A stretch of 64,000 nt of DNA, from contig NZ_JAKRVY010000001.1 in NCBI RefSeq assembly GCF_023638055.1, forward strand, positions 317,815-381,814, read 5' to 3'. The stretch's first letter is position 1, and every line of letters begins with the position of its first letter. Shown here piece by piece: positions 33,986 through 49,060 of the stretch. The notes beneath the pieces are model-generated. The model did no database searches. It was not told the origin of the DNA and saw nothing but the letters and a program-made list of their open reading frames with translations. Made by a program: the position numbers and the translations under genes. Source of the stretch: Natranaeroarchaeum aerophilus. GTDB lineage: Archaea > Halobacteriota > Halobacteria > Halobacteriales > Natronoarchaeaceae.

Positions 33986-34222
33986 TCAGTCGCTGCTGTA
34001 CCCGAACTGTCGGATACACTCGCGCATCTCGGCTTCGTCATCGTGTTTGTGCAGCGTCGTCGGCGTATCGCAGTAGTAGGTACCGCCGTCGAAGCGTAAC
34101 GTCACGTTGTGGGTCGAGCCGAGCATCTCCGTCTCGACGATCACTCGTTGTCCGTCGTTGAGCGCCGCAACTAGCTCGTCAACACCGAGTTCACCGGACA
34201 CGACACGGAGCGGTTCTGTCAT
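33986..34222 (-). CDS. Small protein co-transcribed with argF
   Basis: A 78-residue protein starting MTEPLRVVSGELGVDELVAAL, with a GQRVIVETEMLGSTHNVTLRFDGGTYYC beta-hairpin region and a C-terminal helix MRECIRQFGYSS. I do not recognise a family. The ATG shares a base with the TGA stop of argF (TGATG on the minus strand), so it must be translated from the same message. It is the last gene of the arginine block. A role in arginine metabolism is suggested only by location. Confidence 0.7.
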   Translation of the reverse strand: MTEPLRVVSGELGVDELVAALNDGQRVIVETEMLGSTHNVTLRFDGGTYYCDTPTTLHKHDDEAEMRECIRQFGYSSD

Positions 34223-35139
34223 CACTTGGCCTGTTCGTCCAGCCACACCATCAATCCTTTCTGGGCGTGCAGGCGGTTCTCCGCCTGATCCCACACCACC
34301 GAGGCATCGCTCTCGATGACGTCGCCGGTAATCTCCTCGCCGCGGTGGGCGGGCAGACAGTGCATGACAATCGGATCATCGGCCGCGTCTAGCAGGTCCT
34401 CGTTCACCTGGAATCCCTCGAAGTCGCTCATCCGGACATCGCGTTCGTCTTCCTGACCCATGCTGATCCAGACGTCGGTGTAGACCACATCCGCATCCTC
34501 GACCGCCGCGGCGGGATCGGTCGTGATCGTCGGCTCTCCGCCCAGGTCGGCGGCCCGCTCGACGACATCGTCGTCGATACCGTACCCCTCTGGTGTGGCG
34601 ACGGTGAGGTCGACACCGGTGAGCGCACAGCCGAGCGCGAACGACTGGGCGACGTTGTTGCCGTCGCCGACCCACGCCGCAGTGACGTCGTCCAGATCGC
34701 CGCAGTGTTCCCGGATCGTCAGCAGATCCGCGAGCGTCTGACAGGGATGTGCGTCGTCAGTCAGTCCGTTTATAACTGGGACATCTGCGTAGCGGGCCAG
34801 CTCCTCGATGTTGGCGTGTTTGAACACACGGGCCATCAGGACGTCGACGTATCGCGAGAGCGCCCGCGAGGTGTCCTTGAGCGGCTCGCCCCGACCCAGC
34901 TGGATATCGCTCTCACCGAGGAAGACGGCGTGGCCGCCGAGCTGGGTCATGCCGGTCTCGAAGGAAACCCGGGTGCGTGTGCTTGGCTTCTGGAACAGCA
35001 TACCGAGCGTCTGCTGGTCGAAGTCGTCGTGGTCGAAACCGTCTTCGTACTCGCCTTTGTACTCGCTGGCGACGTCAAGGACGGTCTCCAGTTCAGTGCG
35101 TGTCAGGTCGTCTACGTCGAGGAAATGTCGTGGACTCAT
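34222..35139 (-). CDS. argF: Ornithine carbamoyltransferase
   Basis: Transfers the carbamoyl group from carbamoyl phosphate to ornithine, giving citrulline; 305 residues, normal size. The carbamoyl-phosphate motif STRTRVSFE is near residues 53-61 and HPCQTLAD near 130; the ornithine-site loop is MHCLPAHRGEEI near 265. It overlaps argE by 4 bp (ATGA), so translation is probably coupled. Together with argG and argH it completes arginine from the ornithine produced by the LysW route in the same block. Confidence 0.96.
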   Translation of the reverse strand: MSPRHFLDVDDLTRTELETVLDVASEYKGEYEDGFDHDDFDQQTLGMLFQKPSTRTRVSFETGMTQLGGHAVFLGESDIQLGRGEPLKDTSRALSRYVDVLMARVFKHANIEELARYADVPVINGLTDDAHPCQTLADLLTIREHCGDLDDVTAAWVGDGNNVAQSFALGCALTGVDLTVATPEGYGIDDDVVERAADLGGEPTITTDPAAAVEDADVVYTDVWISMGQEDERDVRMSDFEGFQVNEDLLDAADDPIVMHCLPAHRGEEITGDVIESDASVVWDQAENRLHAQKGLMVWLDEQAK

Positions 35140-36206
35140 TCGTGCTCACCCATGAGGCGTTCAGTGACCGATTCGAGCACGTCGATCGAGCGGTCGTACT
35201 CCGCAAGCGACAGGTGCTCGTTCGGCGCATGATCGAGATCGGAGTCGCCGGGACCGTATGAGACGATCTGACAGTCCCAGTGGTCCGCAAAAACGTTCAT
35301 ATCGCTCGTGCCGGTCTTTCTGAGCAGGCGTGGATCGCCACCAGCGTTCCGGATAGAAACGCGGAACGCACGTGCGATCCCGGTCCGTGGGCTCTCCATC
35401 ACCGGTTCGACCTTGTCCTTCCAGTGGACCGAGCCCATGCCATCGAGATAGCCGTCGGCGATCTCGCGGACCTCTTCGACGGAGAGCTCCGGCGGGATCC
35501 GAAGCTGTACGTCCATCGTCGCCTCGACTGAGAGCCCGTCATCGGTCAGTCCCCCGTCCATCTCGGTCGGCTTCGGCGTCACCCGCTCGAACACTGGCTC
35601 CCACTCGTCGGCCTCGAACTCGTCTTCGATGTTCGACCACCAGGCAATCGCGTCCTGAATGGCGTTGTTCTCGGGACGGGAACTGTGCCCTGACTCGCTG
35701 GTTGCGACGTAGGTTCCGGCGAGCAGCCCACGGTACCCGAGCGTGACGCCGTCCCAGCCGCTTGGCTCGCCGTTGATCACGGTTTCCGGGACGGCGTCCC
35801 GGTCATCGATCGCGAAACGCGAGCCGCGGGAGTCGACCTCCTCGCCGACGACGCCCAGAAAGCTGACGCCAGTTTCGACGGCGGCGACTGCCATCGCGGC
35901 GAGCGCACCGGTTGCGTCGACACTCCCGCGGCCCCACAGCACTTCGCCGTCCTCACCTTCCTCGACCCGTACCGGGATGTCGCCCGGAACGGTGTCGATG
36001 TGGGAGGTCAGCAGTACGGAGTCGTCGGCGGGTGCACGGACGTTGCCGACCTCGTCGATCCAGACTTCGCGGTCGTGGGCCTCGAAGAAGGCGGCGAGTC
36101 GCTCTGCGGCCTCTCGCTCCTCGCCAGTCGGCGATGGGATGCTCACCAGATCGACGAGCAGTTCGCGGGCCGCCTCGCTCGCGCTGGATTCGACAGCTGC
36201 AGTCAT
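35136..36206 (-). CDS. argE: [LysW]-ornithine/lysine hydrolase (ArgE/LysK-type deacylase)
   Basis: An M20-family metallopeptidase that releases the amino acid from the carrier protein LysW; 356 residues. Metal-binding residues are in LLTSHIDTVPG (H near 69) and GRGSVDATGALAAM (D near 95); the catalytic Glu is in VVGEEVDSRGS (about 123-125). It overlaps argD and argF by 4 bp at each end. In this context its job is probably to release ornithine from LysW; bacterial-like N-acetylornithine deacetylase activity is less likely, since LysW and its ligase are in the operon. Confidence 0.92.
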   Translation of the reverse strand: MTAAVESSASEAARELLVDLVSIPSPTGEEREAAERLAAFFEAHDREVWIDEVGNVRAPADDSVLLTSHIDTVPGDIPVRVEEGEDGEVLWGRGSVDATGALAAMAVAAVETGVSFLGVVGEEVDSRGSRFAIDDRDAVPETVINGEPSGWDGVTLGYRGLLAGTYVATSESGHSSRPENNAIQDAIAWWSNIEDEFEADEWEPVFERVTPKPTEMDGGLTDDGLSVEATMDVQLRIPPELSVEEVREIADGYLDGMGSVHWKDKVEPVMESPRTGIARAFRVSIRNAGGDPRLLRKTGTSDMNVFADHWDCQIVSYGPGDSDLDHAPNEHLSLAEYDRSIDVLESVTERLMGEHE

Positions 36207-37339
36207 CCGTCCTCACCCAGGATATCGACCAGCGCGTCGACGACTTCGTCGGCGTGCTCGCGCTTGATGGTCAGCGGCGGGAGCAATCGTAGCACCGACC
36301 GTCCGGCGGGCAGCGCGAGGATACCGTGGTTCAGCGCAAGCTGTTTCAGAAGTCGGTTAGACCCGCGCTTTACCTCGATGCCGATCATCAGCCCCTCGCC
36401 GCGGACGTCGCGGACCGTGTCACCGAGTTCGGCCTCGATCTCTTCGCGGAGATAGTTCCCGACCTCGTCGGCGTGGGCCGGTACCTCCTCGTCGACGATG
36501 GTCGAGACGGTCGCCTCGCCGGCGGCACTGATGACGGGGCCGCCGCTGAACGTTGAGGCGTGGGAACCGTAGTTCTCGGCGATCCAGTCCCGACACAGCG
36601 TTGCGCCGATGGGGAGGCCGTTGCCCAGTCCCTTCGCGCTGGTGATCATGTCGGGGACGACGCCGCTGTCGTCAGCGGCCCACAGGCTCCCCGTCCGACC
36701 CATTCCCGTCTGGACCTCGTCGAAGATCAGCGCGGCATCTGCCTCAGTTGTCGCCTCGCGTGCCGTTTCGAGGAACGACGCCTCAGCAGGGTTGATGCCC
36801 CCTTCGCCCTGAATCGGTTCGACGATCACTGCCGCGGTCTCCTCGTCGACAGCCTCCGCGAGCGCCTCGTTGTCGTTGTACGGCACGAACTCCACGTCGC
36901 CGATTAGCGGCTCGTATGGCTTTTTGTACTTGTTTTTCCAGGTCGTCGCCAGCGATCCCATCGTCCGGCCGTGAAAGCCCTGCATCGTCGCGATAATCTT
37001 CGAGCTCTCGGTTGCCGAGCGGGCGAACTTCAGCGCCGCCTCGTTGGCCTCGGTGCCGGAGTTACAGAGCCAGACTTTGTCGATCCCCTCGGGTGCGGTC
37101 TCGGCCAGCTGTTCGTACAGGTCAGTCCGGCTCTGAACCGGATAGGATGCCTGTACGTAGGTCAGGTCGTCGAGCTGCTCGCGGACGGCGGCGTCGACGG
37201 CCTCGTGGTTGTGGCCCAGCGGGACGCAGGCGTAGCTCGCGCCCATGTCCAGATACTCGTTCCCGCTGTCGTCGTAGAGATAGGCCCCCTCCCCACGCTC
37301 GATCTGGATTGGCTTTTCGTTGAAGACGAACCCGCTCAT
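36203..37339 (-). CDS. argD: Aminotransferase class III (ArgD/LysJ type, LysW-bound semialdehyde)
   Basis: PLP aminotransferase of 378 residues that would convert LysW-glutamate-semialdehyde to LysW-ornithine. Features are VCNSGTEANEAALKFAR-type PLP phosphate contacts (NSGTEANEAALKFAR near 94-108), FDEVQTGMGRTG (Asp near 209) and TSAKGLGNGLPIGA with the PLP lysine near 240. It overlaps argB and argE by 4 bp each, giving tight coupling in the order argC-argB-argD-argE-argF. Dual lysine and arginine use has been described for some archaeal LysJ enzymes; this cannot be excluded. Confidence 0.94.
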   Translation of the reverse strand: MSGFVFNEKPIQIERGEGAYLYDDSGNEYLDMGASYACVPLGHNHEAVDAAVREQLDDLTYVQASYPVQSRTDLYEQLAETAPEGIDKVWLCNSGTEANEAALKFARSATESSKIIATMQGFHGRTMGSLATTWKNKYKKPYEPLIGDVEFVPYNDNEALAEAVDEETAAVIVEPIQGEGGINPAEASFLETAREATTEADAALIFDEVQTGMGRTGSLWAADDSGVVPDMITSAKGLGNGLPIGATLCRDWIAENYGSHASTFSGGPVISAAGEATVSTIVDEEVPAHADEVGNYLREEIEAELGDTVRDVRGEGLMIGIEVKRGSNRLLKQLALNHGILALPAGRSVLRLLPPLTIKREHADEVVDALVDILGEDG

Positions 37340-38190
37340 ACCTCTCCCTCCGTGGTCTCGGCCAGTGTGTCGGCAGTGATGTGGGTGCCCCCCCCGTCGA
37401 CAGCGTCGGTGATCGGCATCTCGGCGTTGGCATCGGCGACGACGACCTCCGGAGAACCGCCCGAGAGCGCCTCCTTTGCGGCCATGACCTTCTTTGTCAT
37501 GAACCCTTCCGCGGCGTCCTCGATCCGTTCGAGCCCCGCGGGGTCGTCGGCGCGCTCGATCAGGGTCGTCTCGTCGTCGGGGTCGGCGAGGATGCCGGGG
37601 ACGTCAGTGAGAACGACCAGCGTCGCGTCGAGCGCTCCTGCGACTGCGGCCGCAGCGCGGTCGGCGTCGGCATTGACGGGCGTCACGCCGCCTTCCTTTT
37701 CCTCGCCGAGCATCGGAACGGTCACGACCGGGGTGTAGTCGTCGCCGAGCAGCGTCTCCAGCAGATCGGCGTTGACGTCGGTGATCTTGCCGGAGTGATC
37801 GCCGCGTTTGATCTTCTTTTTTCCGTCCTCGACGACGCGGACGGCGGACTTCCGGCGGCCAGTGATGAGCCCGCCATCGACACCCGAGAGACCGATTGCG
37901 TCGACGCCCTGATTCTGGAGGCCCGCGGTGAGATCGGTGTTGAGCTTGCCCGGCAGGACCATCTCGAACACCTCCATCGTTCGTTCGTCGGTAAAGCGCC
38001 CGACGACGCCGCCCGGCGTCTCGACGTACGTCGGCTCCTCGCCGAGTGCTTCGAGCGTGTCGTCGACGGCGGTCGAGCCGCCGTGGACGACGACTACCTG
38101 TTCACCCTGTTCGACCAGTCTTGCTACGTCGGCGAGTGCACCTGCCGGGTCGACGGCACGCGCTCCCCCGATCTTGACGACCGTTGTCAT
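37336..38190 (-). CDS. argB: [LysW]-glutamate/aminoadipate kinase (ArgB/LysZ type)
   Basis: Amino-acid kinase of 284 residues that phosphorylates the side-chain carboxylate of LysW-bound glutamate. It begins MTTVVKIGGARAVDPAG (K6, phosphate) and has VVHGGSTAVDDTLEALG near 47-63, GRRKSAVRVVEDGKKKIKRGDHSGK-type insertion near 130 and NADADRAAAAVAG near 187. The start is the ATG at 38190 that opens the conserved VVKIGG strand; the longer frame adds 13 non-family residues. It lies 59 bp after argC and overlaps argD by 4 bp. Confidence 0.93.
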   Translation of the reverse strand: MTTVVKIGGARAVDPAGALADVARLVEQGEQVVVVHGGSTAVDDTLEALGEEPTYVETPGGVVGRFTDERTMEVFEMVLPGKLNTDLTAGLQNQGVDAIGLSGVDGGLITGRRKSAVRVVEDGKKKIKRGDHSGKITDVNADLLETLLGDDYTPVVTVPMLGEEKEGGVTPVNADADRAAAAVAGALDATLVVLTDVPGILADPDDETTLIERADDPAGLERIEDAAEGFMTKKVMAAKEALSGGSPEVVVADANAEMPITDAVDGGGTHITADTLAETTEGEV

Positions 38191-38249
38191 GAGAAGTTCT
38201 TGAATGTATGCAGCATCTGTCGGTATCAAAAGTTGACGGTTCGCGGCCG

Positions 38250-39296
38250 CTACGGCGATCCCACGGGGTGGAGCCCCTGAAATTCGAGCCCGGCGGTCTC
38301 GTTGAGGCCGAGCGCGACGTTGGCCGCGTGGACGGCCTGCCCCGCCGAGCCTTTCATCATGTTGTCGATCGCCGAGAACACGACCACCCGTTTGTTCGAG
38401 GGGTCGAGCTCGAAGCCGACCTCGCCGTAGTTCGTCCCGGCGACGGCCTTCGGTTCGGGATAGCGGTAGACGCCGCTCCCGCCCGCGGCCATTCGCATGA
38501 ACGGTTCGTCCTCGTACGCGCCGCGATACGCTTTCCAGAGGTCGCCCTTCGAGACGGGACCATTCGGAAAGACGTGCGCAGTCGCCGATGCCCCGCGGAT
38601 CATATCGACTGCGTGGCAGGTAAAGGAGAGGTCCAGCCCGAGGAACGACTCGATTTCGGCCTCGTGGCGATGCCCCGTGGGCGCGTAGGGGCGAACGACG
38701 CCCGAGCGCTCGGGGTGTGAGGAGGCGTCGCCGCCGCCCGCACCGCCCTCCGAGGAGCCGACCTTCACGTCGACGACGACCTGCTCGGAGCCGTCGAGGA
38801 CGCCCGCCTCGATCAGCGGGTGCAGACCGAGGATCGTCGCGGTGGCGTTACAGCCACCCGAAGCGATCAGGTCCGCGCCCGGCAGTGCCTCGCGGTTGAT
38901 CTCCGGGAGCGCGTAGACCGATTCCTCGAGCAACTCGGGGCGGCTGTGCCCGTCGTACCATTCCTCGTACTCCGCTTCGGTATCGAGGCGAAAGTCCGCC
39001 GAGAGGTCGACGACGGTCTCGGCCGCGTCCTGAAACCGATCGATCTGCTCCATCGAGACGCCGTGTGGCGTCGCCGTAAAGAGCACGTCGACGCTTGCCA
39101 GCTCCTCGGGATCGGAAAAGCGCAGGTTGGGATGGGTCCCGCGAAGGTTCGGGTGGACCGAGCCCACGGATTTCCCGTCGTAGCTTCGGCTCGTCGCCTG
39201 TTCGATCTCGAACTCGGGGTGGGCCGCCAGCAAGCGAAGCAGTTCGCCACCAGTAAAGCCGCTCGCGCCGACGACGCCCGCGGTCAGATCGGCCAT
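38250..39296 (-). CDS. argC: [LysW]-glutamyl/aminoadipyl-phosphate reductase (ArgC/LysY type)
   Basis: NADPH-dependent reductase of 348 residues that makes the semialdehyde. The Rossmann start is GVVGASGFTGGELLRLLAAHP (about 8-28), and the catalytic Cys is in ASGGCNATATILGLHPL (about residue 148). HRHEAE near 217 supplies the His, and CHAVDMIRG is typical of the LysY branch. Its ATG shares a base with the argX stop codon (TGATG overlap), so translation is probably coupled. Confidence 0.95.
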   Translation of the reverse strand: MADLTAGVVGASGFTGGELLRLLAAHPEFEIEQATSRSYDGKSVGSVHPNLRGTHPNLRFSDPEELASVDVLFTATPHGVSMEQIDRFQDAAETVVDLSADFRLDTEAEYEEWYDGHSRPELLEESVYALPEINREALPGADLIASGGCNATATILGLHPLIEAGVLDGSEQVVVDVKVGSSEGGAGGGDASSHPERSGVVRPYAPTGHRHEAEIESFLGLDLSFTCHAVDMIRGASATAHVFPNGPVSKGDLWKAYRGAYEDEPFMRMAAGGSGVYRYPEPKAVAGTNYGEVGFELDPSNKRVVVFSAIDNMMKGSAGQAVHAANVALGLNETAGLEFQGLHPVGSP

Positions 39297-40177
39297 CAGG
39301 CCGTCACCTCCGCTTCGACCTGTGCTTCGAGCCAGTCGACGACCCCGCCGGTCACGTCGATGTCCGTGGCGTCGTTCAGCGCCTTGAACTCGACGGTGTG
39401 GTTGACCTCGTGGACGGTGTAGCCCTCGGGATCGCCGTTCTCGTCGACGCCGGTCTCCATCAGATCGACGCCCAGCAATCCGCCGCCCACGGCGTCGCTG
39501 GCCTGCTCGACGAGGGATTTCGCTTCCTCGTCCAGCTCGAACGAGTCGGTTTCTGCACCCTTCGCGGCGTTGGTCAGCCAGTGGTCCGAGGAACGGACCA
39601 TCGCGCCGACCGGCTCGCCGTCGACCGCGAGCACGCGGATATCACGGCCCGGCTTCTCGACGAACTCCTGGACGTAGAACACCTTGTGCTCGTAGTGGCC
39701 GAGCGTCGCCTTGTGTTCGAGGATCGCTTCCGCGGCGCTTTTCGAGTCGATCTTGGCCATCAGGCGTCCCCACGAGCCGATCACCGGCTTGAGGACGCAG
39801 GGGTAGCCAAAGGATTCGATGATCTCCATGGCCGAGTCCTTGGTGAAGGCGACCTCGGTGTTGGGAGTGGGGATGCCCGCCTTCTCCAGTGCGAGGCTGT
39901 TCTTTACCTTGTCCGCACAGACCTCCGCGGTCTCGGCGCTGTTGACGATCGGGATTCCGTAGGCCTCACAGAACTGCGTGGCGTACTTGCTCCGGCTGGT
40001 CGCCAGACAGCGATCGAGTACGACGTCAAGGTCGGTGAACGTCTCCGGCGGCTCCCGGATCGAAAAGCGCTGTTTGCGCACGTCGATCTTGACGACGTCG
40101 TGATCGCGCTCGCGAAGCTCCTCGAGCAACAGTTTCTCGTCTTTCCTGATCCGGGAGTAGAGTAGTCCGACTTTCAT
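39296..40177 (-). CDS. argX: Glutamate/aminoadipate--LysW ligase (RimK-like ATP-grasp)
   Basis: A 293-residue ATP-grasp enzyme that ligates glutamate (or 2-aminoadipate) to the C-terminal Glu of LysW. Visible are DRCLATSRSKYATQFCEAYGIP, the ATP-binding FGYPCVLKPVIGSWGRLMAK (about 124-143), and VHEVNHTVEFK near the metal site. Substrate choice depends on a short motif: GF/D/N- versus G/T-containing loops separate ArgX from LysX. I did not decide it from sequence alone; the arginine genes around it favour the glutamate form. It lies 28 bp after lysW. Confidence 0.9.
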   Translation of the reverse strand: MKVGLLYSRIRKDEKLLLEELRERDHDVVKIDVRKQRFSIREPPETFTDLDVVLDRCLATSRSKYATQFCEAYGIPIVNSAETAEVCADKVKNSLALEKAGIPTPNTEVAFTKDSAMEIIESFGYPCVLKPVIGSWGRLMAKIDSKSAAEAILEHKATLGHYEHKVFYVQEFVEKPGRDIRVLAVDGEPVGAMVRSSDHWLTNAAKGAETDSFELDEEAKSLVEQASDAVGGGLLGVDLMETGVDENGDPEGYTVHEVNHTVEFKALNDATDIDVTGGVVDWLEAQVEAEVTA

Positions 40178-40205
40178 TGTGTCCTCGCGACCGCTCCGAT
40201 CGTCA

Positions 40206-40370
40206 TTACTCGCCCCAGTCCTCTTCGAGCTCGGGGGCCTTGTCGAGCTCCGGCGGCTCGACGTCGATCACTTCGAGCTCCGCGCCACAGGTGGTACAGT
40301 CGATGATCTCTCCGACTTCGAGGTTGTCGTGCAGCGAGACCTCCGCGCCGCATTCGACACATTCTGCCAT
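40206..40370 (-). CDS. lysW: LysW-type amino-group carrier protein
   Basis: A 54-residue acidic zinc-ribbon carrier. C4/C7 (MAECVECG) and C25/C28 (IIDCTTCGAE) form the zinc site. The tail is strongly acidic and ends in EEDWGE, the hallmark C-terminal Glu whose gamma-carboxylate is linked to the substrate. It is read in a frame that overlaps unrelated open frames and is easily missed. It leads the lysW-argX-argC-argB-argD-argE-argF run and has its own TATA box (40395-40405). This identifies the arginine pathway as carrier-protected rather than acetyl-protected. Confidence 0.95.
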   Translation of the reverse strand: MAECVECGAEVSLHDNLEVGEIIDCTTCGAELEVIDVEPPELDKAPELEEDWGE

Positions 40371-40394
40371 TGTACTCCCCTCTCGTCGCTATAT

Positions 40395-40405
40395 CTACTT
40401 AAATC
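40395..40405 (-). promoter_or_regulatory. TATA box of the lysW-arg operon
   Basis: Read on the minus strand GATTTAAGTAG, 25-35 bp upstream of the lysW ATG. It implies an internal promoter separating lysW onward from argGH, which end 188 bp upstream. Confidence 0.55.
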
Positions 40406-40558
40406 CTGCGAACTTATCAGAGAAAAGAAACTCGCATACTGGACGCTAACAGAGTAAAACGAACTGTTTCGGAACTTTCACTGGATCAGTATCAATTTCT
40501 ATATGTGTTGTCCCCGGGCGGGGATCGCCGTCTCCGGGGTGGCTGTCGCTGCGGTAGC

Positions 40559-42016
40559 TCACGCATATGTGCTCACCTCGTCTTCGAGCAGCTCCGCCGC
40601 AGTGGCGAGCGCGTTGCGACGCCCGGCGAGGCCGACCTGATGGGCGGCAAGCTGATCCTCGGCGTCTCCAAGGTACGCCTCGACTGCCGCCGGTGCGGGG
40701 CCGCCGACCGAGTCACGCGAGGCGACGCTCTCGGTCGGGTCGAGTGCGGCCTCGACGGCGTCCGGGTCGACGTACTCCGCGAGGGGGCTGTCGAGCACCT
40801 CACGGGCCGCGGCGTCGACCGCATCACGGTCAGCCCCTCGCTCGGACGCAACCGCCACCACCTCGTGGGCGGTCCGGAAGGGGAGCCCGTTCGCAGCGAG
40901 CAGGTCGGCGACGCCGGTCGCCGTCGAAAAGCCCTCGCCAGCGGCCTCGGCAAGGAACTCCTCGGGCCACTCAGCAGTAGCAACTGCCCCGCCGACCACG
41001 TCGGTCGCGTCGAGCACGGCATCGACCGTCTCCCAGGCGTACGGCGTCGCGGACTGCAGGTCGCGGTTGTACGCGCGTGGCAGGCCCTTGAGCGTCGTCA
41101 ACAACCCGTTGACCCCGGCGGCCGCCTCACCCGCGGTCGCACGAACGAGTTCCAGGGTGTCGGGGTTCTTCTTCTGGGGCATGATCGAGGAGGTCGAGGC
41201 GTACTCGTCGGACAGCTCCACGAACCCGCGGTTGGCGAAGACGATCACGTCCTCGGCCAGGCCCGACAGGGTCGTGGCGTGGGCCGCCAACGCCGTCACG
41301 CTTTCGAGCAGGAAATCACGGGTCGAAGAGGCGTCCATCGAGTTTTCGACGATTCCCTCGAAGCCCAGCAGCTCGGCGGTGCGCTCGCGATCGATATCGA
41401 ACGTCGTCCCGGCGAAGGCCGCCGCACCGAGCGGCGAGCGGTTCACGCGCTCGTAGGCGTCGAGCAGGCGTTCGGTATCGCGTGCGATCGCCTGCTCGTA
41501 CGAACAGAGCCAGTGAGCGACCGTTGTCGGCTGTGCGGGCTGCAGATGGGTGTAGCCGGGCATCACGGTCCTGGTGTGCTCGCTTGCGGTGGAAAGCAGC
41601 TGTTCGCGCAGGGCGACCGTCGCCGCGACGGCGTCGAGCAGGTCCTCGCGCAGCCGGTAGCGAATGCAGGTCGCCACCTCATCGTTGCGCGAGCGCGCAG
41701 TGTGCATTTTCCCACCCTCGGGGCCGACGCGCTCGATCACGGCCGTCTCGATCGCCGCGTGGACGTCCTCGCCCTCGGGCAGCGCCTCGTGGCCCGCCGC
41801 CTCGATCTCGTCGAGCGCGGCGAGGATCTCGCCGGCGACCTCGTCCTCGATAACGTCCTGCTCAGCGAGCATGACGACGTGGGCGCGATCGACCGCGATG
41901 TCGGCGGCGAAAATGCGCCGGTCGGCGTCCATCGAGGAGAGAAACTCCCGGGCGGGGCCGCCGCTAAAGCGATCCCGGCGCACTACGTCGGAACTGGGGG
42001 TTTCCTCCTCGGTCAT
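40559..42016 (-). CDS. argH: Argininosuccinate lyase
   Basis: Splits argininosuccinate into arginine and fumarate; 485 residues, typical of the fumarase/aspartase superfamily. The signature loop SSIMPQKKNPDTLEL is near residues 278-292, MHTARSRNDEVAT near 106-118 and TVMPGYTHLQPAQP near 153-166. An HxxPxG-like start (SSMDADRRIFAADIAVDRAHVVML) is present. It begins 1 bp after the argG stop, so it is co-transcribed with argG. A 188-bp gap with a second promoter separates it from lysW. Confidence 0.96.
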   Translation of the reverse strand: MTEEETPSSDVVRRDRFSGGPAREFLSSMDADRRIFAADIAVDRAHVVMLAEQDVIEDEVAGEILAALDEIEAAGHEALPEGEDVHAAIETAVIERVGPEGGKMHTARSRNDEVATCIRYRLREDLLDAVAATVALREQLLSTASEHTRTVMPGYTHLQPAQPTTVAHWLCSYEQAIARDTERLLDAYERVNRSPLGAAAFAGTTFDIDRERTAELLGFEGIVENSMDASSTRDFLLESVTALAAHATTLSGLAEDVIVFANRGFVELSDEYASTSSIMPQKKNPDTLELVRATAGEAAAGVNGLLTTLKGLPRAYNRDLQSATPYAWETVDAVLDATDVVGGAVATAEWPEEFLAEAAGEGFSTATGVADLLAANGLPFRTAHEVVAVASERGADRDAVDAAAREVLDSPLAEYVDPDAVEAALDPTESVASRDSVGGPAPAAVEAYLGDAEDQLAAHQVGLAGRRNALATAAELLEDEVSTYA

Positions 42017-42017
42017 C

Positions 42018-43223
42018 TTACTCGTCCCCGTCGACGCGTTTCGTCACGGCGTTTGCCAGACGGCCCTGATAGCCGTGGTACTTGGCGACGCCGGTGGCGT
42101 CTTTCTGGGTGATGCCCTGTCCCTCGATCGTCTCGGTGTTGAACGACGCGGCGGCCTCGGAGTAGGCGGCGTACTCGCTCTCGCGGCCGACCGGGCGGGC
42201 GCTCCCGCCGTCGAGCTTGATCGTCGCCGTTCCGGTGACGCGTTTCTGGGTCTGTTCGATGAACCCTTCGAGCGCGCCAACGAGCGGCGCGTCGATCAGC
42301 CCCTGATACGCTTTTTTCGACCACTGCTGGTCGACCTGGGCCTTGAATTCGCGTTCCTCCTGCGTGAGGACGAGCCCTTCCAGCGCCTCGTGGGCGTTGA
42401 GCAGCACCGTCGCGGCGGGATGCTCGTAGTTCTCGCGCACTTTCAGGCCGAGCATCCGATCTTCCATCATATCCGTGCGGCCGACGCCGTACGCGCCCGC
42501 CCGCTCGTTGAGATGTTCGATCAGTTCGACGGGTCCGTACTCCTCGCCGTCGACGGCGACCGGTTCTCCCTGCTCGAACTCGATCTCGACGAGGTCGGTA
42601 TCCTCAACGGTGCCCGGTGCATCCGTCCAGTCGTAGATCTCCTCGGGCGGGACGTAGTTGGGCTGTTCGAGATTTGCGCCCTCGACCGAGCGACTCCAGA
42701 GGTTGGTGTCGATCGACCAGTCGCCCTCGTTGCCGCTCTCGACCGGCAGGCCGCGTTCCTCTGCGTACTCGATCTCCCACTCGCGAGTAAGTTCGAGTTC
42801 GCGCACGGGTGCGATCACGTCGAGATCGGAATCTCGCCAGACGGCCTCGAACCGGAGCTGGTCGTTCCCTTTCCCGGTACAGCCGTGGGCGACCGCATCA
42901 CACCCCTCCTCGATTGCAGTTTCGAGGATCGCGTTGGCGATGACAGGGCGTGCCAGTGCGGTCCCGAGCGGGTAGCCCTGATAGGTCGCGTTCGCCTTCA
43001 GCGAATCCAGACAGAGCTGTGCGAACTCCTCTCGGGCGTCGACGACGTGCGTTTCGACGCCGAGGGCCTCCGCCGTTTCCTCGGCCTCCTCGAACTCTTC
43101 GGCTGGTTGTCCGACGTCTACCGTGACGCCGATCACTTCGTCGTATCCGTACTCCTCTTCGAGCAGCCCGACACAGACCGTCGTATCGAGTCCGCCCGAA
43201 AACGCGAGAGCCACACGGTCCAT
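42018..43223 (-). CDS. argG: Argininosuccinate synthase
   Basis: Condenses citrulline and aspartate using ATP; 401 residues. The PP-loop FSGGLDTTVCVGLLEEEYG is at residues 8-26. Other family segments are GCTGKGNDQLRFE near 115-127 and EYGPVELIEHLNERAGAYGVGRTDMMEDR around 235-263. It is the first gene of the block; the TATA-like element at 43251-43259 on the minus strand lies about 28-36 bp upstream of the ATG. It supplies argH one base downstream. Confidence 0.97.
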   Translation of the reverse strand: MDRVALAFSGGLDTTVCVGLLEEEYGYDEVIGVTVDVGQPAEEFEEAEETAEALGVETHVVDAREEFAQLCLDSLKANATYQGYPLGTALARPVIANAILETAIEEGCDAVAHGCTGKGNDQLRFEAVWRDSDLDVIAPVRELELTREWEIEYAEERGLPVESGNEGDWSIDTNLWSRSVEGANLEQPNYVPPEEIYDWTDAPGTVEDTDLVEIEFEQGEPVAVDGEEYGPVELIEHLNERAGAYGVGRTDMMEDRMLGLKVRENYEHPAATVLLNAHEALEGLVLTQEEREFKAQVDQQWSKKAYQGLIDAPLVGALEGFIEQTQKRVTGTATIKLDGGSARPVGRESEYAAYSEAAASFNTETIEGQGITQKDATGVAKYHGYQGRLANAVTKRVDGDE

Positions 43224-43529: not shown

Positions 43530-44234
43530 TCAGTGCCGTCGAGCGATCAGCGCGATTCCGAGTAGGGCTGTAAGTGCTGTGCCGATCCCGAAGCCGGGCA
43601 GGTCGTCGTCAGCGTCGCCCGTGTCGTCTGCGCCGGTCGCCGCGTCACCGTCGGCACTCAGCACGACCTCGAAGCCGTCCAGATCGGTCCCGGCATCCCA
43701 GGTCGCCGTGCCATCGCTTTCGCTATCCGGTGCCGGCGTTGCGTCGCTTACCTGGTAGCCGTCCGGTGCGACGATGGTCAGCGGGCGATCCGTCTCGTAC
43801 CCGCTGGCGAACGGTTCGGTGACAACGAGGTCGTCGCCGTCCGTTGCGGCGAAGTTCGTCCACTCGACTGTCATCGACAGGACGCCGACGTCATCCTGCC
43901 GTTCCGCACTGACGCTCTGGCCCGTCACTGCCATCGTCCGATCGGTTCGGTCGCTGGCCGTGTCGGCGACCGACTGCATGTTGCCCTCGAACCGGTCGAG
44001 CGCGGTCGCTTGCGCCTCCTCGTCACCCACTAGCGACTCGAAGGCGTCGGCTTCCTCGTCGGTGTCGAGGTCGTAGGTCATCGTCAGCGTGACCTGCGCG
44101 TCTCCCGAGTCGTCGAGCTCGACGAGCAGGGACGGCTCGGTGTCGCTCTGCTGGGCTCCTGCGACCGGCGTCACGGCGAGGCTACACACCACGAGTCCTG
44201 CGAGTACCGTCGCTATCGTGCGATTTGAAATCAT
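43530..44234 (-). CDS. PGF-CTERM-anchored surface protein
   Basis: A 234-residue exported protein. The Sec signal (about residues 7-27, ending AGAQQ) is followed by a beta-rich ectodomain (about 33-190). A disordered acidic linker and the tail LPGFGIGTALTALLGIALIARRH follow. LPGFG plus a hydrophobic helix plus RR is the PGF-CTERM sorting signal processed by archaeosortase and lipid-anchored. The ectodomain resembles residues of about 55-225 in the membrane regulator encoded 1 kb upstream (45253-46455), with shared features such as S-L-T-V-E-W-x-x-F and a late PDGYQVSDATP segment. Function unknown. Confidence 0.85.
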   Translation of the reverse strand: MISNRTIATVLAGLVVCSLAVTPVAGAQQSDTEPSLLVELDDSGDAQVTLTMTYDLDTDEEADAFESLVGDEEAQATALDRFEGNMQSVADTASDRTDRTMAVTGQSVSAERQDDVGVLSMTVEWTNFAATDGDDLVVTEPFASGYETDRPLTIVAPDGYQVSDATPAPDSESDGTATWDAGTDLDGFEVVLSADGDAATGADDTGDADDDLPGFGIGTALTALLGIALIARRH

Positions 44235-44255
44235 CGGTGATGAAGTGTAGTTCCG

Positions 44256-45107
44256 TCAGTAGTCCGCTCCGACGTCGGTCTCGGTATCGCCCTCGACGGT
44301 CGTTCCGTCGTCGTCGCTGTCCGCCTCGACGTCGGTCTCGGAGTCAGCTTCGGCCCCGCCGTCGTCGGTGCCCGCGTCAGCATCGGCGTCCGCCCCGGCC
44401 TCGGCGTCCGAGTCGCTATCTTCCTCGTCGCTCTCGCCGTTCATTCCGGGAATGTCGACGCCGACCTCGCCGTCAGCACCGACGCCGATCTCGATGCTCG
44501 GCCCGGCGTCGTCAGCCGCTGCGGCACTGCCGCCAGCGATCTTCTGTGCAGCCTCTGCGACTGCGGGTCCACCGAGCTCGCTCGCGCGGTCCTGGAGCGT
44601 CTGGATGGCCTGCATGTCGATACCGTTTGCGGCGAGGATCTCCTCGTCGAGGCCCTCAGTGCTCGCCTCGCTCTGTGCTGCGAGGTTCGCTGCAGTCTGG
44701 CGTTCGGAGGCCACTACGGCCATCTCGGCCTGGAACTGCCCTTCGGTGATCTCGCCGTTGTCGCGTTTCTCTTCGAGTTCGTCGACGCGGTCTTCTAGCT
44801 CGTCGACGCGTTGCTCGACGTCGTCGAGCTGTTCGCCGACGACCTCACCCTGTGCTTCGGCGCTCGCTGACTGTGCGACTTTGATGCCGAAGGTCCGTTC
44901 GTTCATCTCACCCTCGAACTCCGATTCGTGTACGGCCACGACGCCGGCGAACTGCTCGCCCGGCTCGACGTCGCTGTCATCGTCCGATTCGTCGTCATCC
45001 TCTAGCGCGTGTGCCTGCCCTGCGACGGCCATGGGCGCTGCGGCGACCATGGACACCACGACGGCAAGCGCCACGAGTGCGGTCAGGGTGCGTCTCATTG
45101 CAATCAT
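44256..45107 (-). CDS. Secreted coiled-coil protein with acidic repeat tail
   Basis: About 280 residues: a signal sequence (MRRTLTALVALAVVVSMVAAAPMAVAG region), a short beta part, a Glu-rich coiled coil (QLDDVEQRVDELEDRVDELEEK, about 94-115) and helices to about 175. A low-complexity Asp/Ala/Glu/Ser tail with repeated AEADSE/ADAD motifs ends the protein. The start at 45098 (MRRTLT) fits the TATA box at 45126-45134 better than 45107. The helical part recalls DUF5667-like envelope proteins; this is only a resemblance. It lies between two related surface proteins and is probably functionally tied to them. Confidence 0.7.
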   Translation of the reverse strand: MIAMRRTLTALVALAVVVSMVAAAPMAVAGQAHALEDDDESDDDSDVEPGEQFAGVVAVHESEFEGEMNERTFGIKVAQSASAEAQGEVVGEQLDDVEQRVDELEDRVDELEEKRDNGEITEGQFQAEMAVVASERQTAANLAAQSEASTEGLDEEILAANGIDMQAIQTLQDRASELGGPAVAEAAQKIAGGSAAAADDAGPSIEIGVGADGEVGVDIPGMNGESDEEDSDSDAEAGADADADAGTDDGGAEADSETDVEADSDDDGTTVEGDTETDVGADY

Positions 45108-45125
45108 CCGTTGGAGCGGGAGGAG

Positions 45126-45134
45126 TATATAAAA
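45126..45134 (-). promoter_or_regulatory. TATA box of the secreted coiled-coil gene
   Basis: Minus-strand TTTTATATA, 28-36 bp before the ATG at 45098 and only 19-27 bp before the one at 45107. This spacing supports the downstream start. Confidence 0.55.
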
Positions 45135-45252
45135 TACAGTCTGTGAGCCCGAATCACCGACGATTAAGCCGGATTAAATCGGATTTCAAACTGCTGCTGT
45201 CCGGTGGTTCTGTCTATACTGTTAGAAGATATACACTAAAGCGACGAATGAT

Positions 45253-46455
45253 TTATATCATATCGTTCTCGTCGACCTCGGGGAGCCTCACGACGTTCTC
45301 GCGGCCGATCCGGAACGTCTCGACCGTTCCCTCCTCGCGCAGCTCGCCGATCACCTGGCTTGTCTTCGCGTCGGTCCAGTCCAGCTCCTGGACGACCTGC
45401 TGCTGTTTCAGTCGCCCGTCGTGTTGCTCTAACAGCTGGATGACCCGCTCTTCGTTGCTGAGGAGCTCCGACGGTGGGCCGTCGTCCGACTCAGCAGTGG
45501 CGTCACCATCGTCGTTCGCACTCGAGCCGTCGTCGCTGGCGTCCGGTGTCTCTGTCGCTGCTGCTGGCTCCGTGCCTGCGTCACTCTGAGCCGTAGCAGC
45601 GCCGTCGTCGTCCGGCTCGTCGGCGAGTCCGCGGCTGTAGAGCCACCAGAGCATAAACAGCAGTGCGACGCCGGTAACGCCGCCACCGACCGGTATCAGT
45701 GGAACTCCGTCGCTCTCCTCCCCATCGACCGGCCCGTTATCGAGCCCGTCACTGTCGTCCGGTTCGGTGCTCACAACGACTCGCGGCTCGTCGCCGACGA
45801 AGCTGGTCTCCGAGCCGCGCCAGAGCACCGAGTCCGACCGTGTCTCGCCGGGCTCGGGCCGGACGTCGACGAGGCTGTACTCGCTGGGCCAGCCGACGAC
45901 GAGCCGGCTCTGGTCGTCGAGGAAGAACCCGGAGATGGCGTCCCCGATCTCCATGCGGTCGCCGTCGACGGCGGCGAACCCGCTCCACTCGAACTGGTAT
46001 GTGAGGACACCGTACTCCTGTGGGATCGACTCCGTTCGCGTGGCCACCGTGTAACCGCTCGCGGACATTTCTCTATCCGTCTCCTCCGCTGCCGACGCCA
46101 CCGTGTCGTCCATCGACTCGGCGAACCCGTCGACGTACTCCTCGGGGTTCTCTTCGACGTCCGACTCGATCGAGGCGAACGCCTCCTCACTCTCGTCGTC
46201 GTCGAGTTGCTTCCAGTACTCGACTGTCCAGGCCGCCGTCCCGTCGCTGTCGACGGTCACGGTTAGCCGTACGTCGTCGGCGTCGAACGCCTCCTGGGCG
46301 GTCGGTGTCTCCGGCCCCGACTCCTGCAGCGAGTGGCTTCGATCGTCGACTGCCCCTGCGACGCCGCCGACGGCGAGCACCGCCACGACGCCCACGGCGA
46401 GACAGAGGACGAGTCCCCAGTGGTCCCTCGAATCCATCGTTGCCATCGTTCTCAT
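45253..46455 (-). CDS. Membrane-bound winged-helix regulator with extracellular domain (probably DUF7345/DUF7343)
   Basis: A 400-residue one-component sensor. An N-terminal signal/anchor is at about 14-36, then an extracytoplasmic beta domain at about 55-230 similar to that of the PGF-CTERM protein 43530-44234. One transmembrane helix follows at about 250-270 (GGGVTGVALLFMLWWLYS) and a long acidic cytoplasmic linker. The C-terminal winged helix at about 335-395 contains EERVIQLLEQHDGRLKQQQVV and TDAKTSQVIGELREEGTVE. It would sense outside conditions and bind DNA directly at the membrane. Possible starts are M1, M4 or M7. Confidence 0.82.
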   Translation of the reverse strand: MRTMATMDSRDHWGLVLCLAVGVVAVLAVGGVAGAVDDRSHSLQESGPETPTAQEAFDADDVRLTVTVDSDGTAAWTVEYWKQLDDDESEEAFASIESDVEENPEEYVDGFAESMDDTVASAAEETDREMSASGYTVATRTESIPQEYGVLTYQFEWSGFAAVDGDRMEIGDAISGFFLDDQSRLVVGWPSEYSLVDVRPEPGETRSDSVLWRGSETSFVGDEPRVVVSTEPDDSDGLDNGPVDGEESDGVPLIPVGGGVTGVALLFMLWWLYSRGLADEPDDDGAATAQSDAGTEPAAATETPDASDDGSSANDDGDATAESDDGPPSELLSNEERVIQLLEQHDGRLKQQQVVQELDWTDAKTSQVIGELREEGTVETFRIGRENVVRLPEVDENDMI

Positions 46456-46529
46456 CCTTGCCGGTAAAGCCTTGTTGCTCTCCCCCGACGGCCGATGTCC
46501 TTTTGGGACCCCCGTGACAAGCGGGTGGT

Positions 46530-46724
46530 ATGATGGATTCCCGCGCAGACGTCGAGGTCGAGACCCTCCTCCGTATCGCGCTCGTGCTGGTCATCGTCGT
46601 GCTCGTGCTCGAACTGCTCTCGATGCTGATCAGCGGGCTGGCGTCACTGCTCGGCTTCCTCCAGCCGTTGATCCTGCTGGCCGTTGCCGTCCTGATCGTG
46701 CTCTGGTTGCTCGACCGACTGTAG
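46530..46724 (+). CDS. Small two-helix membrane protein (probably DUF7554-like)
   Basis: A 64-residue protein, nearly all hydrophobic, with two membrane segments at about 15-37 and 42-62. A conserved ADVEVETLLRIALVLV start is visible. It is divergent from the membrane regulator gene across 74 bp. Function unknown; small transmembrane proteins of this type are common in haloarchaea. Confidence 0.7.
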   Translation: MMDSRADVEVETLLRIALVLVIVVLVLELLSMLISGLASLLGFLQPLILLAVAVLIVLWLLDRL

Positions 46725-47266: not shown

Positions 47267-49060
47267 TCACGCGAGCAGCCGGGGGCCGAAGATGACCAGC
47301 AGCAAGCACAGCAACATTGTCAGTCCGACCGTTGTCGTAACCGTCTTTGTCAGCTGATACGACCCCTCGATCGGCAGCCGCGAGACGATCGCTTCGGTAC
47401 TCGTCCGCAAGATGTGCCCGCCATCGAGCGGGAACGCGGGAATGCAGTTGAAAAAGCCAAGCTGGATGTTGATCCAGCCGACCCAGAACAGGATATTCGC
47501 CAGCACGAAAGTCCCGGCTCCGAGCGCCGCCAGCGGGCCATCGACGACGTAGAAGTTCATGATCTCGCTCGTGAACCCGGCGAAGCTCTCGGGGAAGGTT
47601 GCGCCCCCGATAATCCCGGCAAGCGGGAGGAACAACACGAGTAGCGTCTTGCCGATGAACGAATCGGTGACGCCGGGGTCGATTGCGGCTTCCTCGTCGT
47701 TCTCGCCGCCGAGGATTTCGAGGTATGTGCCTGCGGGGTAGTACTGTAGCCCCCACTCGCTGGTCGTGATGCCGTTCACGCCGGGTGCAACCGACGCCGC
47801 GCCGACGAGTGCACCACCGTCGTCTGCTTCGGCGAACGTCACCTCGTGGGTGGTGCGATCGATCCCCTCATACACCACGATTTCGGCGGTCTCATCGGGG
47901 GATTGCTCGTCCATCACGTCGCTGAGATCGTCGCCGGTGAGGACGCGTTCCCCGGCGATCCCCGTAATAACGACGCTCGATCCCGGTTCGAGACCGGCAT
48001 CGTCAGCAAGTGGTCCGTCCTCGGCCACGACGACAAGCGCCCCGGTTGCGAACGTCTCGTCCACCGCCTCGCCGTTCCGGTCGATGTCCACAGTCACGAC
48101 CTCCTCCGCGCCAAGTGCAGTCTGCAGTTCGTCCCGTGTATCGACCGTCTCGCCGTCGACGGCGGTGATGCGGTCGCCTATCTCGACGTTGTCGGGACCG
48201 CCCTGTGTGACAGCGTCGACGACGAGCCGTTGTTCGATCGTCCTCTCTTCGTCCTCGTTGAGTTCGACGGTCACCGCTTCCCGGTCAGTGTCCGCGAGCG
48301 CTCCTTCGAGGTCGCTGTTCGTCTCGATCGGCTCGCCATCCAGTGCAGTGATCCGGTCGCCCCGGTCGATTCCTGCCGTCTCCGCCCCCGAGTTGGGGAC
48401 TGGACCGGCAATCGACGCGCCCGGTGCGACGGCGATCGCGCCGGCAACCGGGCCAAAGAGCAGCGCAAACACGAGCACCGAGAGCACGAAGTTGTTCGTC
48501 ACGCCCGCCGCGAACATCCGGCTACTCCCACCACGGCTCGCATTGCGCTGGCTCTCCTGTTCGGGTTCGACGAACGCGCCGATCGGGATGATCGCCAGCA
48601 TCGCGACGCCCATCGAGTTGATGTCGATGTCCTCGACGCGACAGAGCAGGCCATGCCCGCCCTCGTGAACGACGAGGCCGACGAGCAGGGCCAGCACGAT
48701 TTCGGGAGCCATCGACAGCGGCAGGAAATCGTTGACGCCGGGGATCGCCAGCACGTTTCGCGGCTGTGTGACCTGTGTGGGCTGTGGCGAGGAGAGCGCC
48801 AGCGCCGCCGAGAGCACGAGCATCAGGAAGGCACCGACCATCACGACCAGCGCGATGCCGAGCCCCATGTTCGCCCACGCCCGCCAGAACCGATCCCACT
48901 GGGAGAGCCAGTCGAGGAACTCCCGACCGCGTTTCGTGTGGATCGTCGTGATCGGCCCCTGCGTGTTGACGTACTCGGGGAGCCAGCCGCGCTGGTTCGC
49001 CGTCCGTACGAGGACCCAGTAGGCGAGGATCCCGCCTACGACCCAGACCAGCGTACTCAT
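47267..49060 (-). CDS. Site-2 protease with PDZ domains
   Basis: A 597-residue intramembrane zinc metalloprotease. The active-site VVHEGGHGLLC (HExxH, H132-H136) is in a transmembrane helix, and the second metal motif FPLDGGHI (LDG, residues 545-547) is near the C-terminus. Two or three PDZ-like repeats lie at about 215-450 (AGIDRGDRITALDGEPIE, VEIGDRITAVDGETV, GLEPGSSVVITGIAGERV). Such proteases cut membrane-bound transcription regulators. A membrane-anchored regulator is encoded 1 kb away, but no direct link is shown. Confidence 0.92.
   Translation of the reverse strand: MSTLVWVVGGILAYWVLVRTANQRGWLPEYVNTQGPITTIHTKRGREFLDWLSQWDRFWRAWANMGLGIALVVMVGAFLMLVLSAALALSSPQPTQVTQPRNVLAIPGVNDFLPLSMAPEIVLALLVGLVVHEGGHGLLCRVEDIDINSMGVAMLAIIPIGAFVEPEQESQRNASRGGSSRMFAAGVTNNFVLSVLVFALLFGPVAGAIAVAPGASIAGPVPNSGAETAGIDRGDRITALDGEPIETNSDLEGALADTDREAVTVELNEDEERTIEQRLVVDAVTQGGPDNVEIGDRITAVDGETVDTRDELQTALGAEEVVTVDIDRNGEAVDETFATGALVVVAEDGPLADDAGLEPGSSVVITGIAGERVLTGDDLSDVMDEQSPDETAEIVVYEGIDRTTHEVTFAEADDGGALVGAASVAPGVNGITTSEWGLQYYPAGTYLEILGGENDEEAAIDPGVTDSFIGKTLLVLFLPLAGIIGGATFPESFAGFTSEIMNFYVVDGPLAALGAGTFVLANILFWVGWINIQLGFFNCIPAFPLDGGHILRTSTEAIVSRLPIEGSYQLTKTVTTTVGLTMLLCLLLVIFGPRLLA

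Follow-up and report, generated by a model that had tools for sequence, protein, structure and literature searches.

A 64,000-nucleotide stretch of the Natranaeroarchaeum aerophilus genome (assembly GCF_023638055.1, contig NZ_JAKRVY010000001.1, positions 317,815 to 381,814), referred to here as the window, contains a gene for a membrane-tethered transcriptional regulator (REG), followed on the same strand by genes for an acidic coiled-coil protein (CC) and for a shorter protein resembling the outside part of the regulator (SHORT). The features of the locus are listed in Table 1.

Table 1. Features of the REG locus, in window coordinates.
Feature	Position	Strand	Description
REG	45253-46455	-	Membrane-tethered regulator, 400 aa; signal-like segment, DUF7345 ectodomain, one TM helix, acidic linker, DUF7343 winged helix; an ATG at 46446 is an alternative start
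Repeat array (putative operator)	45146-45187	-	Four direct repeats of a TTAATCCGGC-like unit at ~10-bp spacing
TATA box	45126-45134	-	TTTTATATA, read directly from the sequence; box of the CC-SHORT unit, about 13 bp downstream of the array
CC	44256-45107	-	Secreted acidic coiled-coil protein, putative remote member of the DUF7096 superfamily; putative partner of REG
SHORT	43530-44234	-	DUF7345 ectodomain with a PGF-CTERM anchor signal and no DNA-binding domain, 234 aa; 21 nt behind CC
DUF7554 protein	46530-46724	+	Two-helix membrane protein, 64 aa; syntenic neighbour, judged not part of the module
M50 protease	47267-49060	-	Site-2 protease with PDZ domains, RseP-like
Arginine biosynthesis genes	34222-43223	-	Include a LysW-like carrier (40206-40370), with argG and argH

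Pfam searches showed that REG contains DUF7345 (PF24036, E 9e-29, residues 65-193) and the winged-helix domain DUF7343 (PF24034, E 3e-29, residues 331-392), with a single hydrophobic helix after the signal-like segment, at about residues 261-275 in the AF2 model. The presence of a DNA-binding domain and a TM segment in one polypeptide places REG among the one-component transmembrane transcription regulators. SHORT contains the same ectodomain family (E 7e-27), and the scores in the two proteins, 100.7 and 94.6 bits, are above the curated cut-off of 27.5. The C-terminus of SHORT has a PGF motif, a hydrophobic stretch and basic residues, and matched the PGF-CTERM model of NCBIfam (TIGR04126, E 8e-9), which was detected in 14 of 18 SHORT proteins scanned. 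Profile-to-profile comparison of the SHORT and REG families gave a match of 99.9% (E 1e-34), extending through the membrane segment. In the AF2 models of both proteins, the ectodomain has pLDDT mostly above 90, with the same order of elements (two strands, two helices, then strands).

No solved homologs of the ectodomain were found by sequence, apart from weak matches only, including one of the SHORT profile to the Fenna-Matthews-Olson (FMO) protein (E 0.34). Foldseek searches with both ectodomain models returned FMO proteins first (E about 1e-6, but TM-score about 0.2), and FMO proteins and LppM were matched by both models. Because the TM-scores were about 0.2-0.4, we do not use these matches beyond noting that the two models give much the same list.

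CC has a signal peptide, a coiled coil and an acidic tail (30% D+E), and lacks a second hydrophobic segment. The window CC scored 15.8 bits against DUF7096 (PF23379), below the cut-off of 27, while several of its relatives exceeded the cut-off, and profile comparison of CC with DUF7096-DUF7094 proteins gave a match of 98% (E 2.7e-13). In the genome containing the window, the only DUF7096 match over cut-off lies beside REG_A, a paralogous regulator, and the next best match is CC beside REG.

To investigate whether these genes are conserved together, we examined 80 named loci found with REG. CC is present within three genes of REG in 62 of the 80, usually next to it, while SHORT is near REG in only 13. 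Conversely, of 36 SHORT loci examined, 33 have CC directly upstream on the same strand, with gaps often between -4 and +2, suggestive of translational coupling, and REG lies next to CC in 23 of the 36. The order and strand of the genes vary (co-directional REG-CC-SHORT, convergent, divergent, and the reversed order CC-SHORT-REG) while the genes stay together, indicating more than inherited synteny. Several CC-SHORT pairs have no REG beside them, although REG may lie elsewhere in those genomes.

SHORT was found in about 30 of 194 genomes of the class. All but two of the short forms, namely a short fragment (locus L046) and one long branch (locus L042), fall in one clade of 42 (SH-aLRT 99). This rules out a recent truncation of REG as the source of SHORT, which is instead an old accessory family.

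The pairing extends to the paralog REG_A, which has a divergent DUF7096-type gene in 30 of 30 loci, suggesting that a regulator plus a DUF7096-type protein is the general unit. In 40 related genomes, 46 of 52 DUF7096 genes over cut-off lie within 3 kb of a DUF7345 gene, compared with about 0.5% by chance. DUF7345 was found in nearly every haloarchaeal genome tested, and in a minority of other genomes of the phylum.

Two neighbors of REG were considered as further members of the module and rejected. The DUF7554 gene, together with a 2'-5' ligase gene, follows the argG-linked REG even where CC is gone, and is absent from REG-CC loci elsewhere, and thus reflects conserved synteny of the argG locus. 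The M50 protease gene, rejected as a conserved member outside the genus, is beside REG only in the window genome and in the one other genome of its genus examined, and is not in the mapped flanks elsewhere. REG is linked to the arginine biosynthesis locus in many genomes, and some argG-linked REG genes have lost CC. Control of argG by REG was also considered, but no repeat array was found there outside CC upstreams. In three argG loci (L172, L191 and L192), a DUF7345 protein without a detected winged helix stands at or near the place of REG. In locus L179 (genome G083), REG ends in a long GE-repeat tail, encoded by a GGCGAG repeat running toward CC.

Inspection of the region upstream of CC revealed the array of direct repeats just before the TATA box, which is the only array of three or more units in the 64-kb window. 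A phased pair of units is present in 63 of 74 CC upstreams, compared with 27 of 1443 control upstreams (1.9%) and 2 of 90 REG upstreams, with spacing peaks at 10, 20 and 30 bp. Since the matrix was trained on these sequences, a held-out test was carried out, in which the pair was present in 16 of 16 cases compared with 5 of 248 controls. In most clear cases the array ends 11-13 bp upstream of the TATA-like box, the usual place of an archaeal activator site. The promoter of REG_A does not carry the array, and many of its loci (among L002 and L006-L035) instead have a different conserved motif, approximately CTGACGTTTTAT followed by GATAGAAAGCATTTT.

Three classes of REG, distinguished by their recognition helices (TSQ, TSK and TSR), are associated with different repeat units, TTAATTCGGG, AAAACGGCGT and CGCAACNGGC, respectively. 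The Q-type core occurs in 40 of 45, 2 of 29 and 2 of 14 upstreams. These classes correspond to about three lineages, and the match between helix and repeat type is therefore suggestive rather than independent proof.

We next searched for the array beyond CC. The genome containing the window has one other site of the strict core, on another contig, upstream of a small secreted protein that we refer to as X. Members of family X (L231:3717-4082 on contig C3 of the same genome, and in loci L091, L094, L124, L129, L177 and others) share the core PxDLPxPVPxFVSxIxxxI and have no Pfam match over cut-off. X homologs lie within 4 kb of REG in 23 of 80 loci, and 16 of 36 have the array upstream. A scan of 116 genomes of the class with a strict 15-base core gave 26 sites, all intergenic, and none for the reversed pattern. 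Of these, 12 are upstream of CC, nearly all with REG alongside, and 9 are beside X. Among the remaining five (loci L248, L250, L253, L260 and L261), one precedes a predicted lipoprotein of 474 aa.

The original prediction described a regulator with an outside beta domain, one membrane helix and an inside winged helix, a look-alike of its ectodomain ending in a PGF-CTERM signal, a secreted acidic coiled-coil protein between them, and a divergent two-helix membrane protein. This description is correct, with all four ORFs present at the stated coordinates. The accompanying proposal, an envelope-sensing unit in which a lipid-anchored decoy or co-receptor tunes a one-component regulator, is supported only in part. 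Neither outcome named in advance as refuting it was observed, since the ectodomains belong to the same family and the genes are co-conserved in many genomes and arrangements. The regulatory unit is further supported by the putative operator, which the prediction had missed together with the close spacing of CC and SHORT, which look like one transcription unit. However, the core partner of the regulator is CC rather than the look-alike, which tracks CC rather than REG, and the DUF7554 gene does not belong to the module. A decoy or co-receptor role for SHORT remains possible, but is hypothetical.

We propose, with moderate confidence, that REG is a membrane-tethered one-component transcription factor with an outside DUF7345 domain that reads a surface state, and an inside DUF7343 winged helix that binds the phased repeats upstream of the CC-SHORT promoter, and of genes for small secreted proteins elsewhere in the genome, and activates them. 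In this view, CC is the cognate partner of the DUF7345 ectodomain. SHORT, an old paralog of the sensor that probably shares the transcript of CC, would most likely bind the same partner at the cell surface and so feed back on REG as co-receptor or decoy, although its absence beside 67 of 80 REG genes indicates that it cannot be essential to the switch. The domains, the shared fold family, the co-conservation, the operon-like linkage, the array with its specificity, and the match of repeat type to recognition helix are established computationally. That REG itself binds the array, that it activates (suggested by the position of the array upstream of the TATA box), that CC or any other ligand binds DUF7345, that SHORT is cleaved by ArtA and attached to lipid, and the direction of any SHORT feedback are inferred from sequence alone.

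Alternatively, CC and SHORT may be only the output of REG, forming a surface structure in which SHORT anchors CC outside, with the shared ectodomain being a relic of duplication and neither protein acting back on REG. The array places CC-SHORT downstream of REG, CC-SHORT occurs without a neighboring REG in several genomes, and the other apparent target, X, is also a secreted protein. We consider this possible but less likely, because CC stays beside REG even without SHORT and across rearrangements, and REG_A keeps a DUF7096 partner without any SHORT, suggesting that partner and sensor are tied to each other. It is much less likely that a different regulator binds the array, with REG linked to CC-SHORT for another reason. 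The absence of the array from REG's own upstream region would allow this, but the repeat type changes with the recognition helix of REG, and the sites found across the class lie largely upstream of CC with REG alongside, or beside X, whose homologs sit near REG in 23 of 80 loci. Regulated intramembrane proteolysis, in which a surface signal would lead the M50 protease to cut REG free while SHORT and CC guard the first cleavage, is similarly improbable. The single TM helix and long disordered linker of REG and the nearby protease are compatible with it, but the M50 gene is not in the mapped flanks of REG beyond the genus.

A more speculative and, on present evidence, doubtful extension is that the regulator switches on, from a helically phased array, its own secreted ligand together with a surface-anchored decoy of its own receptor domain. 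This would constitute a class-wide haloarchaeal feedback loop of co-expressed ligand and decoy receptor around a membrane-tethered transcription factor, with operator types that co-evolved with the recognition helix. Archaea have few described ways to pass surface information to DNA, and no paper in the literature searched mentions DUF7345, DUF7343 or DUF7096. The array gives a defined candidate regulon, the REG-CC and REG_A-DUF7096 pairs are candidate receptor-ligand pairs, and the three helix-operator classes offer a natural specificity-swap experiment in a genetically tractable group, making a new kind of archaeal surface signalling directly testable.

Comparison with known systems shows partial similarities. 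Known clients of PGF-CTERM/archaeosortase A anchoring are S-layer and other surface proteins (PMC8875312 and references in it), and a look-alike of the receptor domain of a transcription factor was not found described among them. A census of transmembrane transcription regulators (PMC10269533) reports TM segment and DNA-binding domain in one protein, with single-pass as the commonest form, but these Pfam families, their partners, operator and look-alike were not found described in the papers searched. The Haloferax volcanii proteins HVO_0306 and HVO_1944, described as 'probable transmembrane glycoprotein/HTH domain protein' and with glycopeptides in PMC8241124, may carry DUF7345. ArnR and ArnR1 of Sulfolobus acidocaldarius (PMC6396743) are archaeal membrane-bound one-component activators of surface-structure genes that act on paired promoter boxes. 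However, they have an N-terminal HTH, a HAMP-like and sensor domain and two C-terminal TM helices, and their boxes are inverted repeats (TCGAC-N5-GTCGA), whereas REG has a C-terminal HTH and one TM helix, and its putative operator consists of direct repeats phased at 10 bp; no secreted partner of ArnR is mentioned in the parts of that work consulted. The closest parallel in proposed operation is with the co-component systems VtrA/VtrC and ToxR/ToxS of enteric bacteria (PMC9214523, PMC7496328), in which a membrane-tethered transcription factor is encoded next to a partner that meets its outside domain, with partner genes that overlap or abut. In those systems the partner is itself membrane-tethered and mostly lipocalin-like, whereas here the DNA-binding domain is C-terminal and of the IclR/MarR-like DUF7343 type, the putative partner is a secreted coiled-coil DUF7096-type protein without a second TM segment, and a copy of the sensor domain with a predicted surface anchor is added.
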